NCBI GenBank assembly: GCA_003695725.1
Contig: RFHX01000287.1
Span: 1 to 7,093, forward strand
Direction of reading: 5' to 3'
Origin: J061 sp003695725 [NCBI: Candidatus Schekmanbacteria bacterium]
GTDB lineage: Bacteria; Schekmanbacteria; GWA2-38-11
Length of the DNA: 7,093 nt
Shown here: positions 43-6,560 of the stretch, one piece after another
Position numbering within the stretch: position 1 is the stretch's first letter
Layout: the number at the start of each line of letters is the position of its first letter
The notes under the pieces: model-generated
Database searches by the model: none
Told to the model about the DNA's origin: nothing
Seen by the model: the letters and a program-made list of their open reading frames with translations, nothing else
Translations under genes and position numbers: made by a program

Positions 43-414
43 ATGGATGTATTGATTGTAGATGATTCTTCCGTAATGAGGAAAATCTTAACACGCAGTT
101 TAAGACAATCTAATTTGGATATTGGAGAAATCATCGAAGCATCTGACGGAGAAGAAGCACTAAATAAAATCAAAGAAAATTCTGTTCAGCTTGTTCTATG
201 TGATGTCAATATGCCCAAACTCAATGGCCTCGAGTTTGTCAAAAAAGTCAAAGAAAACAACATCTCTCCTGATACAAAAATAATAATGGTAACAAGTGAA
301 GGCGGCTTGGATACAGTAAACCAAGCAGTAGAAAATGGCGCCAAGGGATTTATCGTAAAACCTTTTTCAGCTGAGGATTTTAAAAAGAAAATAGAACATC
401 TGTGCGCCGCTTAA
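43..414 (+). CDS. cheY: CheY, single-domain chemotaxis response regulator
   Basis: This is a stand-alone receiver domain of 123 residues, the usual CheY length, with no output domain. All the catalytic positions are visible: acidic pair D7-D8 for Mg2+ binding, phospho-acceptor D54 in the motif CDVNMP, T84 in the switch position, and K106 in the VKPF motif. F103 stands where enteric CheY has the switch tyrosine, a common replacement. By family knowledge it is phosphorylated by CheA in the cytoplasm and carries the signal to the output, usually the flagellar switch. It starts the cluster, and the two genes just downstream encode CheX-like proteins that should dephosphorylate it. A start at 43 is supported by a strong AGGAG. 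A CheY acting as a phosphate sink, or in a non-flagellar pathway, cannot be excluded without flagellar neighbours. Confidence 0.96.
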   Translation: MDVLIVDDSSVMRKILTRSLRQSNLDIGEIIEASDGEEALNKIKENSVQLVLCDVNMPKLNGLEFVKKVKENNISPDTKIIMVTSEGGLDTVNQAVENGAKGFIVKPFSAEDFKKKIEHLCAA

Positions 415-464: not shown

Positions 465-950
465 ATGGAAAATATTTTAGCTATGCTTTCAGAAGCTACT
501 AAGGAAGTTTTTCAAACAATGATGTCATACGACATAGACACATATCAGGAAAAATTGGATGAATTTGCCGATAAGATTCATATGAGCACGATCATTACAT
601 TAGATGGCACAATAAAAGGAGCGCTTGTTTTTCATTGCTCGAATAATTTTGCCCAAAAGATTACATCTGCCCTTCTCAATACAGATCCCTCAGACACTTT
701 GGAAGAAGTGGAAATAAAAGATGCCATTTCTGAATTGACAAATATCATTGCCGGAACACTCAAGAATAAAATAAACAATTTAGGTCATACATTCACTCTA
801 TCCATACCAAAAAATCTTAATTGGTCTGAATATATCAATGAAACAAAACATTCTAAAAAAGAAAGGATAATAAAATTCAAATCAAAGGATGACTACTTCT
901 TTCTCGAATTGCTCTCTCATAAGGAGAAAGAACTCAAAAAAGCATCCTGA
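465..950 (+). CDS. cheX: CheX-type CheY-P phosphatase
   Basis: The product has 161 residues, close to the usual length of CheX (about 155). The key evidence is the CheC/CheX/FliY signature D-x3-E-x2-N, seen as D86, E90 and N93 in DAISELTN, followed by G97 and by P115 in SIP at about the family spacing. In this family the Glu and Asn side chains enter the CheY active site and speed hydrolysis of the phospho-aspartate. CheC and FliY normally carry two such motifs and CheX one, and one is present here, favouring CheX. The residues before the motif (about 40-60) resemble the family beta strands, with a GxIxGxLVF-like pattern. No signal peptide or membrane segment is seen, so the protein is cytoplasmic. 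The gene lies 50 bases after cheY and 11 bases before a second CheX-like gene, fitting a role in ending the CheY signal. Activity is inferred from the motif. Confidence 0.9.
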   Translation: MENILAMLSEATKEVFQTMMSYDIDTYQEKLDEFADKIHMSTIITLDGTIKGALVFHCSNNFAQKITSALLNTDPSDTLEEVEIKDAISELTNIIAGTLKNKINNLGHTFTLSIPKNLNWSEYINETKHSKKERIIKFKSKDDYFFLELLSHKEKELKKAS

Positions 951-961
951 GGGCAAAGCAA

Positions 962-1966
962 ATGGATGAAAAACTGATTGAAAAAGTTGAAGAAAAAATA
1001 GGAGATATCCTTGAACCTTTTAACAAGGATATAGACGAAATATTCAAAACTTTTTCAGAGAAGCCTATAAAATCACTTCATAAAAAGAGCTCGACGATTG
1101 AGGGAAAAGAATTTTTAACTTCAGAAAAGAATAAAAAGGCAGTTATTTGCACACTAAATTCAGATGAAGAATTTAAAGGTACAATATATCTATCCTTTAG
1201 TTATGAGGAAGTTTGCACCATTTCAGGAATAGTTAATGGATTGGCTGAAAATGATGTAGAAGAAAAAATCAAAAGCGGAAATTATGACGAAAATGACATC
1301 GATACTGTATCAGAAATTGCAAATCAGATAGCTTCAAAACTCAACAGCGCATTCAACCCTGTCTCACCTAAAAAAGTTCATTTCATAAAGAAAGCACATT
1401 TCATAAATGAGGGAAATGAGGAAAGCGGGAACAATATATTAAATGAAAATGAGAAATATCTTTCAAACGAATTCTCCATCAGCATTGAAGGAAATGATTT
1501 AGGAGTGCTCTTTATTCTCATTCCTTTAGATACAGGAGCAGAAATTTTAGGTTTGGCTGAAGATGATGAGGAATCAGAAAAGAAAAAAGAAAAAAAAGTA
1601 AGAAAGATAATCGTGTTGGCAGAAGAGTTAGACTCTGAAAGTGAAACAACATATTCAGAAGCCGCAAAGAGTATCGAAGCAGAAATACTCTCCTGTAAAT
1701 GCGATTCCGACATCAGTCAAAAAGGAGAACTCAAAGAGGCAGACATCATCTTTTTAGATTTTGAAAATGACCCTGAAAAGGGGATTTCAATCTGTAAAGA
1801 AGTAATCAATTCAGCAGGCAAAGGCAAAAAAGTTATCTTATCATCCAAAAACATAACCAAACCTATCTTGATGAAAGCGCTATCGAATGGAATAAACGAT
1901 ATCATTGTCAAACCAACGACTACGGAAACTGTAGTTAAAAAAGTTCAAATGAATATGGAGCAATAG
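962..1966 (+). CDS. CheX-like phosphatase domain fused to a degenerate receiver domain
   Basis: This 334-residue protein has two parts. Residues about 1-198 look CheX-like: D114, E118 and N121 in DTVSEIAN reproduce the D-x3-E-x2-N phosphatase signature, and strands around 61-80 and 171-190 fit the fold. This part is longer than ordinary CheX, with an Asn/Glu-rich insertion near 148-168. A charged linker at about 199-214 (Glu/Asp then Lys runs) leads to a receiver-like domain at about 215-330. There, A220-E221 replaces the normal Asp-Asp metal pair, while D266 (in FLDFE), S294 and K317 (in IVKP) occupy the phospho-acceptor, switch and lysine positions. Whether it accepts phosphate is uncertain. 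It may be a regulatory pseudo-receiver controlling the attached phosphatase. The gene starts 11 bases after cheX with a weak GAGGG-like site, and its stop is one base from the cheA start, implying translational coupling. I know no accepted gene symbol for this fusion. Confidence 0.72.
   Translation: MDEKLIEKVEEKIGDILEPFNKDIDEIFKTFSEKPIKSLHKKSSTIEGKEFLTSEKNKKAVICTLNSDEEFKGTIYLSFSYEEVCTISGIVNGLAENDVEEKIKSGNYDENDIDTVSEIANQIASKLNSAFNPVSPKKVHFIKKAHFINEGNEESGNNILNENEKYLSNEFSISIEGNDLGVLFILIPLDTGAEILGLAEDDEESEKKKEKKVRKIIVLAEELDSESETTYSEAAKSIEAEILSCKCDSDISQKGELKEADIIFLDFENDPEKGISICKEVINSAGKGKKVILSSKNITKPILMKALSNGINDIIVKPTTTETVVKKVQMNMEQ
1957..1960 (+). promoter_or_regulatory. ribosome binding site of cheA inside the preceding gene
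   Basis: GGAG sits seven bases before the cheA ATG at 1968 and inside the last codons of the CheX-receiver gene. The upstream TAG (1964-1966) and the ATG are separated by one base, so ribosomes ending the upstream gene can start cheA directly. Confidence 0.7.
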
Positions 1967-1967
1967 A

Positions 1968-4631
1968 ATGTCTTTTCAGATAAGTGAAAAAATAAAGAAG
2001 ATAATCGATCAGATAAATGCGCTTCTTATAGCAGACAGCGATGATTCAGCATTCAACAAGGAACTAAATGAAAAACTTATCGAGTTAAAATCAGCCCTTG
2101 AAAAATGTGATGATAAAAGCCTTCATAGTTTAATCGATAAATTGAATAAGCTCATCGAATATGAAGAAAAAAGCAGTAATTCATCGAATTCAGGTTATGA
2201 AGAATATATCAATCAAGTAAAATTGGTCATCTCAGAAATTGAAAATGGTTCTAATGATAAATCATCTGAACTTATTGATAATGATACAAAAAAAGAGGAA
2301 GACACCCTTATTGACTTTTCCGAAGAGGATTATGAACTTTACAATGATTTTATAGCTGAAGCATTAGAACATCTTCAAAACATTGAAGAATCAGTAATAG
2401 GGCTTGAAAACAACAGTTGTGATGAAGAGCTTCTCAATAGTATATTTCGCGCCTTTCACACCATAAAGGGCAATTCAGCATTCTTGAATCTAACCAAAAT
2501 GAATATTCTTGCCCACAAATCAGAAAACCTTCTCGATGCAGTAAGACAGAATAAGATCAATTACAATCCTTCCATAGCTGATGTCATCTTGGAATCAGTA
2601 GATATTCTTAAAAAAATGATCTCTACGCTGACAGAAAGCATAAAACAAAAAAAATCGTTTAAAGAAGAAACTGAAATAAACGAAATTATCGCAAAAATCG
2701 AGCAAGCATTGAATGAATCTTCACCTACCACTTCAAGGGAAGAAAAAGAAAACTTAATTTCAGAGGAAAATAAAGAATCCCTCAATGAAACTGATGATAA
2801 TAAACAAAGGGGAAAACAATTTACACTTTTTTCAGAAGAATCAGACAAAAGTTTTCTTTCTGATTTCATTGAAGAATGCAATGAATATATCAGCAATGCT
2901 GAAGCATCACTCTTAGAGCTTGAAACTGACCCTAATGACAAAGAAGCAATAAATACAATATTTAGAGCTTTTCATACAATCAAAGGAACTTCATCGTTTC
3001 TTGGGATCACACCAATTTCTGAACTTAGCCATAAGGTTGAATCACTATTAATTCCAGTACGAGACGGAAAAAAATCATTCAGCGAAACCTATGCCGACAT
3101 TTCCCTTCAAGCCATTGATTATTTAAAGGAACTGCTGAAATTAATTCAAATATCAATCGATGGAGGGAATATAGAAGAGCCGGAAGGATTTATAAATTTC
3201 TTGAAAAAATTAGACAACCCTGAAGAACTGTTATCAGTTAAAAAGATTGAAAGCGATGTACCGCGACTTGGCGAAATTCTTGTTGGTGAAGGCAAAATCT
3301 CAAAGGAGGATTTAGAATCTGCAGCATCAAAAGAAGGAAACGAGCCAATAGGGGTTAAATTGGTCAAAACAGGAGTTGCATCAGTAAAAGATGTTGCACA
3401 AGCAATAAGAAAACAGAAAAAAATTTCAGAAGTATTTCAGTCTCAGGACTCTTCTGTAAGGGTACGCACCGACCGTCTTGACAGACTTATTGATATGGTA
3501 GGAGAATTGGTAATTGCCCACTCAATGGTCGTGCAGGACACAACATCGCTCACACAACAATCAGAACTGCAAAAAAAACTTTCTCATTGCGGAAAAATTG
3601 TAAGAGAATTGCAGGATCTTAGTCTCGCAATTAGAATGGTCCCATTAAAGCCTACATTTCAAAAAATGACACGCCTCGTTCGAGACCTTTCAAGAAAAAG
3701 CGGAAAAGCCATTAACTTCATCACAAATGGAGAAGAAACAGAAATTGACAGAAATATGGTCGATATCCTTAATGACCCTCTTGTGCATTTGCTGAGAAAC
3801 GCAGTTGACCATGGCATAGAAGACAAGGAAACAAGGCAAAAGATGGGAAAAGAGGGAACAGGCACTGTGAAGCTTATCGCCTACCACTCGGGAGGTAATG
3901 TCGTATTGGAAATCATTGATGACGGGAAAGGTCTGGACAAAGAAAAAATCATTAACAAAGCCATAAACAAGGGAATTTTTACAGGTAAGGAAAATTTGTC
4001 TGATAATGAAATTTTCAACTGCATATTTGAACCCGGATTTTCCACTGCTGAAAAAATCACTGACATATCAGGTCGAGGAGTAGGACTAGATGTAGTGAAA
4101 AAAAATATTGAATCCTTAAGAGGGAAGATAATTATTTCTTCAGAAAAAGGGAAAGGATGCAAATTCACTATACGCCTTCCTCTAACAATGGCTATCACAG
4201 ACGGAATGATCATTAAATGTGGGAATCACAGATTCATAATACCAACAATAAATATTTCAATGAGCTTCAAGCTGGAAGAAAATATGATCTCAACAATAGC
4301 CGGCAAAGGGGAAATAATAAACCTTCGAAATCAAATATATCCCTTTTTTAGGCTGTCGGAAATCTTCAAAATTCCGCCAGATATAAAAAGCGTAGATGAA
4401 GGAATTGCCATAATCATCAATGACACACAAAATCCATACATTCTTTTGGTCGATGGAATTCTTGGACAACAACAGGTTGTAGCAAAATCTTTAGGTAATC
4501 ATTTTATTAATCTGCCTTCAGTTTCTGGTGGTGCAATTCTTGCTGACGGAAGAGTGGGACTAATTCTCGATACATCAGGGCTTTTTCAAATGGCAAAAGA
4601 AACAAAGCGAAAAAGGACGGTAAATTTATAA
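1968..4631 (+). CDS. cheA: CheA, chemotaxis histidine kinase with two phosphotransfer domains
   Basis: At 887 residues this is longer than a classical CheA (about 650-700). Order of parts: a helical charged extension at 1-120; Hpt1 at about 121-222 with phospho-acceptor H164 in RAFHTIKG and supporting E186; an acidic Ser/Asn-rich linker at 223-292; Hpt2 at about 293-395 with H336 in an identical RAFHTIKG core and E358; a duplicated LGEIL-type module at about 433-480; the P3 dimerisation helices from about 495; and the P4 ATPase with N box around N611 (HLLRNAVDHG), G1 box D651-G655, GFST near 690-693 and G2 box G702-G706. A CheW-like P5 domain runs from about 740 to the end. No P2 domain for docking CheY or CheB is recognisable. 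No receiver is fused at the C-terminus. By family knowledge it autophosphorylates on His in trans under receptor control with CheW, then phosphorylates CheY and CheB. Confidence 0.95.
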   Translation: MSFQISEKIKKIIDQINALLIADSDDSAFNKELNEKLIELKSALEKCDDKSLHSLIDKLNKLIEYEEKSSNSSNSGYEEYINQVKLVISEIENGSNDKSSELIDNDTKKEEDTLIDFSEEDYELYNDFIAEALEHLQNIEESVIGLENNSCDEELLNSIFRAFHTIKGNSAFLNLTKMNILAHKSENLLDAVRQNKINYNPSIADVILESVDILKKMISTLTESIKQKKSFKEETEINEIIAKIEQALNESSPTTSREEKENLISEENKESLNETDDNKQRGKQFTLFSEESDKSFLSDFIEECNEYISNAEASLLELETDPNDKEAINTIFRAFHTIKGTSSFLGITPISELSHKVESLLIPVRDGKKSFSETYADISLQAIDYLKELLKLIQISIDGGNIEEPEGFINFLKKLDNPEELLSVKKIESDVPRLGEILVGEGKISKEDLESAASKEGNEPIGVKLVKTGVASVKDVAQAIRKQKKISEVFQSQDSSVRVRTDRLDRLIDMVGELVIAHSMVVQDTTSLTQQSELQKKLSHCGKIVRELQDLSLAIRMVPLKPTFQKMTRLVRDLSRKSGKAINFITNGEETEIDRNMVDILNDPLVHLLRNAVDHGIEDKETRQKMGKEGTGTVKLIAYHSGGNVVLEIIDDGKGLDKEKIINKAINKGIFTGKENLSDNEIFNCIFEPGFSTAEKITDISGRGVGLDVVKKNIESLRGKIIISSEKGKGCKFTIRLPLTMAITDGMIIKCGNHRFIIPTINISMSFKLEENMISTIAGKGEIINLRNQIYPFFRLSEIFKIPPDIKSVDEGIAIIINDTQNPYILLVDGILGQQQVVAKSLGNHFINLPSVSGGAILADGRVGLILDTSGLFQMAKETKRKRTVNL

Positions 4632-4650: not shown

Positions 4651-5172
4651 ATGGAAAAGAATCATAGCGAACATAGCGAAAAATTAGGAGGAAAATTTTT
4701 AACCTTCTTTCTCGGGAAAGAAGAATATGGGCTTCCAATATTAACGGTGCAGGAAATAATTGCTTTACTGCCAATTACTCCCGTTCCGAGGACACCAAAT
4801 TACTTCAAGGGATTAACTAATCTTAGAGGAAAAATCATTCCTGTTATGGACTTGCGCTTAAAATTTGGAATGGAAGAATTGGAACCAACTGATGAAACCT
4901 GTATCATTGTCGTACGAACTTCAAAACAATTGATGGGACTAATAGTTGATAGAGTATCTGAAGTTAAAAATATCTCTGATGAATCAATAGATGAACCGCC
5001 TGAATTTGGCGACAATAGCATAACTGATTATCTTTCAGCGATTGGAAAATCAAATGAATCAGTTGTCCTGATAGTAGATATAGAAAAAGTAGTCAATACC
5101 AATGAATTATCAGAAATTAATTTCAATGAAGTTGAAAACAGCAGTGCAAATTCAGAAGAAAATATCTCTTAG
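4651..5172 (+). CDS. cheW: CheW, adaptor linking chemoreceptors to CheA
   Basis: A 173-residue single CheW domain, slightly longer than the usual 150-170. Recognisable family features are the N-terminal strand FLTFFLGKEEYGLPI (16-30), TNLRGKIIPVMDLR (56-69) with the conserved receptor- and kinase-contacting arginine R59, and GLIVDRVSEV (96-105). These are the two beta-barrel halves that bind the CheA P5 domain and the receptor tip. The last 25 or so residues (from about 150) are rich in Asn, Ser and Glu, look unstructured and are not part of the conserved fold. The protein is cytoplasmic with no membrane segment. It follows cheA by 19 bases, the standard pairing for stoichiometric array components. 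An alternative such as CheV is excluded because no receiver domain follows. Confidence 0.95.
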   Translation: MEKNHSEHSEKLGGKFLTFFLGKEEYGLPILTVQEIIALLPITPVPRTPNYFKGLTNLRGKIIPVMDLRLKFGMEELEPTDETCIIVVRTSKQLMGLIVDRVSEVKNISDESIDEPPEFGDNSITDYLSAIGKSNESVVLIVDIEKVVNTNELSEINFNEVENSSANSEENIS

Positions 5173-5196: not shown

Positions 5197-6039
5197 ATGG
5201 AAAAACCTAAGATAAAGAAATTCGAATTTGGAAAAATTGCTCAAACAATAAAGCAAATAAGCGGCATCAATCTCTCTGCAGAAAAAGAATCAATGATAAG
5301 ATCCCGCCTACTGAAGCGTATAAGAGCACTAAATTTCAAATCATTAAATGAATATCTCAATTATTATAATAATGATAAAAGCGGAAGAGAAATTTACGAA
5401 ATCATAGACCTTCTAACAACCAACAAGACAAACTTTTTTCGTGAAAAACATCATTTTGAATTTATAAAAGAAGTGGTCATTCCTGAAATAAAACACAGAC
5501 AGTACTTCATATGGAGCGCTGGTTGTTCTTCAGGAGAAGAGCCCTATTCTATTGCAATGCTGCTCCATAGCATTTTGCCCGAATCTTACCTTTCAAATGT
5601 AAAAATTCTTGCAACTGATATTTCAACAAGAATGATTCATAAAGCGCAAGAGGGCATCTACGACAAAGAATCTATAAAAGAACTCCCCGAATATTATTTA
5701 GAACAATACTTTAAACCTATCAAAAGCAAACACGGAACGAAATATATACTAAAAAATATCATTAAAGAGTCAGTAGTTTTTGCAAAACTTAACTTGATGG
5801 ACCCTTGGCCTATGAAAGGTCCGTTCGATTTGATCCTTTGCCGAAATGTAATGATCTATTTCGATAAAGAAACACGAGAAAGACTTATCAATCGTTTTCT
5901 CGAAATGTTAAAGGAGAACGGCTATCTCTTTGTGGGGCATTCAGAAAATTTAGCAGGAATCAAAACATCTTTGGAATATATAGAGCCGGCAATATACCAA
6001 AAGCCTGCAACGGAAAGAAGAAAAAAGGCAAAATTATGA
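5197..6039 (+). CDS. cheR: CheR, chemoreceptor glutamate methyltransferase
   Basis: This is a complete 280-residue CheR, the usual length. An N-terminal helical domain (about 10-80) ends in LTTNKTNFFRE (73-83), the conserved basic region before the catalytic domain. The S-adenosylmethionine fold shows WSAGCSSGEEPYSIAM (106-121) including the Gly-rich SAM loop and E115, the second-strand acid D141 in ATDIS, N199 in KLNLMD, CRNVMIYFD (215-223) and GHSENL (247-252). It transfers methyl groups from S-adenosylmethionine to glutamates on receptor cytoplasmic helices, opposing CheB. The beta-subdomain (about 155-192) is present, but its loop reads KSKHG and lacks the glycine-rich stretch of enteric CheR, so tethering to a receptor C-terminal pentapeptide is doubtful. 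The ATG at 5197 lacks a good Shine-Dalgarno, the gap from cheW is 24 bases, and the next in-frame ATG (residue 33) would delete family sequence. The 3' end overlaps cheD by four bases. Confidence 0.95.
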   Translation: MEKPKIKKFEFGKIAQTIKQISGINLSAEKESMIRSRLLKRIRALNFKSLNEYLNYYNNDKSGREIYEIIDLLTTNKTNFFREKHHFEFIKEVVIPEIKHRQYFIWSAGCSSGEEPYSIAMLLHSILPESYLSNVKILATDISTRMIHKAQEGIYDKESIKELPEYYLEQYFKPIKSKHGTKYILKNIIKESVVFAKLNLMDPWPMKGPFDLILCRNVMIYFDKETRERLINRFLEMLKENGYLFVGHSENLAGIKTSLEYIEPAIYQKPATERRKKAKL

Positions 6040-6560
6040 TTCATACAGTTGGTTTGGCAGATATGAAAATATCTTCTTCAAAAGAAGATATCATCATAAC
6101 CCATGGACTGGGAAGCTGTTTAGGTATTACCGTCTATGACCCTTTGGCTCATATAGGTGGAATGCTTCATGTAATGCTTCCTTTTTCCAATATCGACCCT
6201 GAAAGAGCAAAGGAAAAACCTTTTATGTTTGTTGACACGGGATTGCCTAAACTTTTTATAAGCTGTTACGAGATGGGAGCTTCCAAAGATAGACTAATTG
6301 TAACTGTGTGCGGCGGAGCAAATCCTCTGGGAATGAGCAACAACAAAGTTTTCAACATTGGTGAAAGGAATTTTGCAATCCTTCAAAAACTTCTCGACAA
6401 AAATAATGTATCTCTTGCAGCCTGTGATATAGGCGGCACTCAATCGAGAACAATGACACTCGAAATTGCAACCGGTAGAGTTTCTCTGAAAATAAATGGC
6501 TATGAAAATAAGGTCTTGTTTGACGCTTCTACAGACAAAAGCGCTCAAGTTTTCAAATAA
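6036..6560 (+). CDS. cheD: CheD, chemoreceptor glutamine deamidase
   Basis: A 174-residue CheD of normal length. The catalytic cysteine C28 lies in THGLGSCLG, the histidine H45 in GGMLHVMLP and the threonine T22 just ahead, matching the Cys-His-Thr arrangement of Thermotoga CheD. NIGERN (107-112) and DIGGTQSR (131-138) are further family motifs. It hydrolyses selected receptor glutamine side chains to glutamate, making methylation sites for CheR. In Bacillus and Thermotoga, CheD also binds CheC and increases its phosphatase activity. No CheC lies in this window, only two CheX-like proteins, so that partner is open. The ATGA overlap with cheR (start at 6036, cheR stop 6037-6039) implies translational coupling. 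A weak AAGG precedes the start. Confidence 0.95.
   Translation: MIHTVGLADMKISSSKEDIIITHGLGSCLGITVYDPLAHIGGMLHVMLPFSNIDPERAKEKPFMFVDTGLPKLFISCYEMGASKDRLIVTVCGGANPLGMSNNKVFNIGERNFAILQKLLDKNNVSLAACDIGGTQSRTMTLEIATGRVSLKINGYENKVLFDASTDKSAQVFK

Follow-up and report, generated by a model that had tools for sequence, protein, structure and literature searches.

A CheC/FliY-type domain joined to a degenerate receiver beside cheY and cheX in a chemotaxis operon

The locus and the family of its third gene

The window, by which we mean the whole 7,093-nucleotide stretch analysed, is one entire contig of a genome that has 374 contigs. It carries a tight chemotaxis operon in the order cheY-cheX-target-cheA-cheW-cheR-cheD-cheB (Table 1), where the target is the gene studied here. 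The target is an intact open reading frame with an ATG start, which opens 11 bases past cheX and stops 1 base short of the start of cheA. In bacteria without CheZ, signal removal is attributed to CheC, CheX and FliY, and the target joins a domain of this group to a receiver-like domain. Elsewhere in the operon, cheR and cheD overlap by four bases (window 6036-6039), and a part of CheA (residues ~425-490) between its Hpt stretches and its dimerisation domain may resemble MshEN-type repeats.

Table 1. Genes and features of the window, with the evidence for each
Feature	Position	Strand	Evidence or remark
cheY, likely substrate (predicted)	43..414	+	Response_reg 106.9 bits
cheX, canonical	465..950	+	CheX 66.3 bits; start set at ATG 465, frame open from GTG 402
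Target gene, 334 aa	962..1966	+	CheC/FliY-type domain, charged linker, pseudo-receiver
N-terminal CheC/FliY-type domain, aa 1-197	962..1552	+	Family profile A4 (33 rows), hhalign
Signature D114-x3-E118-x2-N121	1301..1324	+	D 66/67, E 67/67, N 67/67
Charged linker, aa 198-212	1553..1597	+	Between the two matched domains; read from translation
C-terminal pseudo-receiver, aa 213-334	1598..1963	+	Response_reg 29.3 bits; family profile A5 finds CheY structures
A220-E221 at acidic metal pair site	1619..1624	+	8svz alignment; Cys-Gln in G001 orthologue
D266, phospho-Asp position	1757..1759	+	8svz alignment; Asp in 5/67
S294, Ser/Thr position	1841..1843	+	8svz alignment; Ser 37/67, Thr 1/67
K317, Lys position	1910..1912	+	8svz alignment; Lys in 43/67
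cheA, two Hpt stretches	1968..4631	+	Pfam domain search
cheW	4651..5172	+	Pfam domain search
cheR	5197..6039	+	Pfam domain search
cheD	6036..6560	+	Pfam domain search
cheB, cut by contig end	6573..7091	+	ORF list and Pfam domain search

The fusion is a widespread family and not a local oddity. We traced 69 proteins in 41 genera and 16 families, 67 in a first set and two (L146 and L172) that were found later and are counted apart. The set of 67 consists of deduplicated proteins that scored at least 55 bits with the N-terminal domain matched; weaker matches, including receiver-only proteins and the FliY-like L100 and L101, were left out, and L147, which has lost the catalytic Asn, and the FliY-like L169 also lie outside it. 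Sampling was uneven, with 34 of the 67 coming from one family according to labels entered by hand. The original prediction had proposed looking for orthologues with the same fusion beside cheA, and one was found in G001, the only other genome of the window genome's family among the relatives searched. This close orthologue is 42-43% identical to the window protein and sits in the same order, cheY-cheX-target-cheA. Its operon (locus L123) also has an 827-aa open reading frame separating cheW from cheR, and cheD is followed there by a second cheY-cheX pair ahead of cheB.

The window protein itself matched in 4/60 genomes, two of the four being receiver-only matches. A two-row profile matched in 14/386 genomes at E 1e-5 or better; beyond the window and G001, the G311 match spanned both domains (E 3.9e-21, positions 44-334), the G192 match covered the N-terminal domain only, and the remaining matches covered the receiver part. 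When the loci were read, the G192 protein was found to have both parts, and the target gene followed cheY and cheX in both G192 and G311. At the same threshold, the four-row profile A3 matched in 184/196 genomes around G311 and in 95/147 around G192. We rejected the reading of every profile match as a family member, as many of the matches behind the 184/196, 95/147 and 312/386 tallies cover the receiver part only. Around G232, 4/193 genomes matched at E 1e-18 or better, including G001 and the receiver-only L173. The genome-contig collection gave no match with the window protein or the two-row alignment, one scan of the viral contig collection gave none, and neither did tblastn of two relatives against plasmids.

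The gene order is conserved on the upstream side. In 64/67 members, the same strand carries a cheX no more than 250 bases upstream and a cheY no more than 1,300 bases upstream. Of the other three, L084 has neither gene, L098 has its cheX 278 bases away, and L102 has cheY alone. The cheA gene lies directly downstream in the window and in G001 and three genes downstream in G582, and the downstream genes differ in the other loci read. Two further architectures were seen during the search. Eleven relatives of 585-661 aa (L085-L094 and L096) have two tandem CheC/FliY-type domains before the pseudo-receiver. L127, L137 and L139 (287-300 aa) represent another architecture of CheX/CheC type, in which the N-terminal part is repetitive and a D-x3-E-x2-N helix lies close to the C-terminus.

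Signature and class of the N-terminal domain

The original prediction, made from the letters of the window, had read D114, E118 and N121 of the target as a D-x3-E-x2-N phosphatase signature. The residues stand at these positions, and they are conserved in the orthologues: E118 and N121 are kept in all 67 members and D114 in all but one. In 33 diverse N-terminal domains, which are 14-39% identical to that of the window, these three were the only invariant columns; the chance of exactly those three among 197 positions is 1 in 1,254,890, a figure that serves as a yardstick only because columns are not independent. Both domain copies of the tandem relatives keep the motif (11/11). The loss of E118 and N121 in orthologues, which had been named as grounds for abandoning the prediction, was not seen in the set; outside it, the distant homologue L147 (G248, 1501-2487) has Tyr in place of the catalytic Asn, with Glu at the receiver Asp position, and is perhaps non-catalytic.

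Domain calls were weak on the window protein alone and clear with the family profile. Pfam CheX (PF13690) scored 12.4 bits on the window protein, below its cut-off of 27 (E 0.17), and reached E 0.01 or better in 6/33 members. Neither CheC (PF04509) nor FliMN_C matched the window protein, even at E up to 1, and where a FliN-type domain might be looked for there is a receiver-type domain instead; the G001 orthologue scored 13.1 bits with CheC against a cut-off of 22. When the 33-row family profile A4 was compared with solved structures, the best match was 4hyn, the CheC part of a CheC/FliN fusion (FliY-N), with E 1.8e-10 over positions 5-189 of 193. CheC 1xkr followed at 3.9e-5, and then CheX at 0.014 over 28 positions. 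A control profile of 26 neighbouring CheX proteins behaved in the opposite way, finding CheX first (9.3e-32) and 4hyn at just 0.0034. In hhalign, the N-terminal profile matched CheC/FliY at E 5.7e-11 over 166 columns (the partner profile being small, with four sequences) and CheX at 1.8e-9 over 99 columns, and CheX matched CheC/FliY at 9.6e-5 over 66 columns. Homology to the CheC/FliY superfamily thus covers most of the length of the domain, by both the 4hyn profile match and hhalign.

Judged from these alignments, the domain is better described as CheC/FliY-type, closer to FliY/CheC than to CheX. The label "CheX-like phosphatase" in the original prediction therefore held for the signature and not for the class, since the FliY/CheC match runs over most of the length and the CheX match over 28 positions. 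Of the two sites of CheC-type proteins, the second is invariant and the first is unconserved, with Asn in 2/33 and Glu in 11/33 members at columns that we placed from the ungapped 4hyn alignment.

The target therefore shares with FliY-N and CheC (4hyn, 1xkr) a profile match over most of its N-terminal domain, the D-x3-E-x2-N helix and the chemotaxis context, but differs from them in lacking the first site and a FliN-type domain and in having a pseudo-receiver instead. With CheX it shares a single site with Glu and Asn, and a canonical cheX lies directly upstream of it in nearly all loci, whereas its PF13690 score stays under the cut-off and its match to a CheX structure is short.

The match to FliY-N also bears on a different function, in which the domain would be a non-catalytic binder that holds CheY-P at the motor in FliY's place, with the signature kept for binding. 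The FliN frames of six target genomes tested are short (101-151 aa), and PF04509 had no match at the fliM/fliN genes of those six, where the larger gene partnering fliN was taken to be FliM. In G311, G483, G537 and G192 the target lies on the same contig as fliM/fliN at a distance of ~12-26 kb. We nevertheless regard motor binding as very improbable, because a catalytic Asn kept throughout the 67 and in both copies of the 11 tandem proteins is more than binding should need, and we identified no FliN-type domain and no motor-binding segment in the target.

The C-terminal receiver-like domain

A receiver origin of the C-terminal part, as originally proposed, was borne out by the family profile of this part (A5), which finds CheY and other receivers (e.g. 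3h1f, E 2e-14). On the window protein alone, Pfam Response_reg (PF00072) scored 29.3 bits against a cut-off of 30.2 (E 1e-6), and NCBIfam returned response-regulator models only, all far under their cut-offs. PF00072 reached E 0.01 or better in 19/33 members. A phmmer alignment to the receiver 8svz, weak on its own (E 0.0092), placed A220-E221 on the Glu-Asp pair, D266 on the phospho-Asp, S294 on the Ser/Thr site and K317 on the Lys. The broken acidic pair and the three retained residues were thus correctly located in the original prediction. When aligned with the C-terminal part, the CheY and CheB of the window misplaced the first strand, and these alignments were left out of the folding. Nor did we take a PleD match to indicate a PleD-like adaptor; two receivers (26 and 34 bits) add up to its score, which is no better than those of single CheY proteins.

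Structure models gave partial answers to the fold check that had been suggested. A full-length single-sequence model was uninformative, including its N-terminal domain (mean pLDDT 34.5). The C-terminal part folded alone, also from a single sequence, reached a mean pLDDT of 55.4, and a strand in this model covers residues 262-266 and therefore ends at D266. The ten best Foldseek rows for this model were receivers or response regulators, including 3bre at rank 6, which we take to be one; the best E was 0.011, none reached 0.001, and TIM barrels appeared at ranks 11 and 12. The models thus lend faint support to the receiver fold and say nothing on the N-terminal one.

Across the family the receiver site has decayed, and the decay takes different forms. 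The phospho-Asp is present in 5 of the 67 and absent from 62, Ser or Thr occupies the S294 position in 38 and Lys is found in 43; no member combines the acidic pair, the Asp and the Lys (0/67). These counts favour the pseudo-receiver, one of the two options that the original prediction had offered. The window protein and its G001 orthologue are half-decayed, keeping Asp, Ser and Lys with Ala-Glu (window) or Cys-Gln (G001) at the pair. The C-terminal half of the domain is better kept. G310 and P318 do not vary among 32 receivers, and column 298 (Trp), T299, A306 and K327 are conserved at 90% or more, with Ile at 298 in the window.

In L146 and L172, which come from two genomes of a single genus, the gene order is the same and the receiver is canonical (DD/D/K). 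Because this genus keeps the canonical form, the receiver probably decayed within the family, and we infer that it began as a normal, phosphorylatable one. Control by phosphorylation is unlikely in the window's branch, given that Cys-Gln stands in for the metal pair in the close orthologue.

The other option of the original prediction, a receiver that senses CheA phosphoryl flow, would make the target a working response regulator: D266 would accept phosphate from CheA even with the metal pair changed, and the receiver would then switch the phosphatase in a feedback loop. D266, S294 and K317 are kept in both the window and G001, E221 is acidic in the window, and L146 and L172 show the canonical site in the same gene order. 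However, three residues shared by two sequences at 42-43% identity are weak evidence of selection, and the Cys-Gln of the orthologue and the missing phospho-Asp in most of the family leave this option unsupported in the window's branch, where we consider it very unlikely. A CheA-sensing receiver may be real elsewhere, since the homologous genus of L146 and L172 keeps the canonical residues.

Proposed function and related systems

CheC-type phosphatases work by placing an Asn and an acidic residue in the CheY active site, and signal removal in CheZ-less bacteria is attributed to CheC, CheX and FliY (PMC3035606). Because the CheC-type Asn and acidic residue are invariant in the family, the N-terminal domain most likely dephosphorylates the CheY of the operon. 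The receiver most likely works without phosphorylation, because the metal pair is abnormal in the window and its orthologue and most relatives are without the acceptor Asp. We therefore propose, at roughly even confidence, that the target is a CheC/FliY-type phosphatase of CheY-P whose receiver-like part serves, independently of phosphorylation, as an arm for docking or dimerisation. The N-terminal domain would work with the one CheC-type site that it keeps: on the model of CheX, E118 would form a salt bridge with the Lys in the CheY active site and N121 would position the attacking water. The operon's own CheY, whose gene lies two genes before the target, is the likely substrate. The receiver would descend from a phosphorylatable one, would have lost phosphorylation in the window's branch, and would act through its better kept C-terminal half as an arm that sets the phosphatase beside a partner, for which CheX, CheD and CheA are candidates. 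The sequences show the family-level domain assignments, the invariant signature, the decay of the receiver site and the gene order; activity, substrate, lack of phosphorylation, direction of decay and the role and partner of the arm are inferred.

Several observations count against a phosphatase with such an arm. Neither domain of the window protein passes its Pfam cut-off, the window and G001 still have the phosphorylation-site residues D266, S294 and K317, L147 is without the catalytic Asn, the N-terminal fold is without support from the structure models, and the sampling is uneven.

CheD is central to another account, in which the target stands in for CheC and works mainly with CheD. Binding to CheD, tuned by CheY-P, would adjust receptor deamidation, and phosphatase turnover would be secondary; a link between CheC, CheD and CheY-P is described for Bacillus (PMC3513319). 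The domain is of CheC/FliY type, cheD lies in the same operon, and CheD was found in 24/24 target genomes tested. The window's genome (G000) gave one PF13690 and one PF04509 match, both to the window's CheX, and so by these models has no CheC besides. However, the 24/24 count comes from target-bearing genomes alone, many relatives have no cheD match near the target, and G537 and G483 carry a separate two-site CheC besides the target. We consider the CheD-centred account rather unlikely.

The phosphatase with a docking arm can be set beside systems already described. Response regulators that have a CheC output domain form an established class (PMC2222644), and Psyr_0886 is one of them (PMC5654926). 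The target resembles this class in joining a CheC-type domain and a receiver in one protein, but its receiver is C-terminal and degenerate and its gene belongs to a cheY-cheX module; this comparison is with the class as those papers describe it. For a phosphorylatable receiver controlling a CheC domain, the residues say no in the window's branch and yes in L146 and L172. Fusions of CheA with CheC/CheX are reported in Leptospirae (PMC10542144) and likewise attach a CheC/CheX-type domain to a chemotaxis signalling protein, although the partner there is a kinase and that of the target is a receiver. Two flagellated Desulfuromonas strains have a cluster of cheA, cheW, cheB, cheR, cheC, cheD and cheX beside flagellar genes (PMC8235581). 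We found no description of the target architecture or of the cheY-cheX-target module in the literature searched.

A last possibility, which we think unlikely, is that the target is a distinct further CheC-type line locked with CheY and CheX as a three-gene module. Its once phosphorylatable receiver would be a built-in mimic of CheY, seated on the E/N helix of the target itself or of CheX and displaced by real CheY-P. If this were true, signal removal would gain a threshold without phosphorylation of the regulator.

The family places another conserved CheC-type member, with an architecture of its own, next to CheX in many genomes. As much of the family escapes domain models, it may be undercounted in surveys of chemotaxis phosphatases. 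Its receivers range from the canonical form of one genus through the half-decayed form of the window to others that are fully decayed, and this series lends itself to studying what a receiver does when it has lost the capacity to be phosphorylated.
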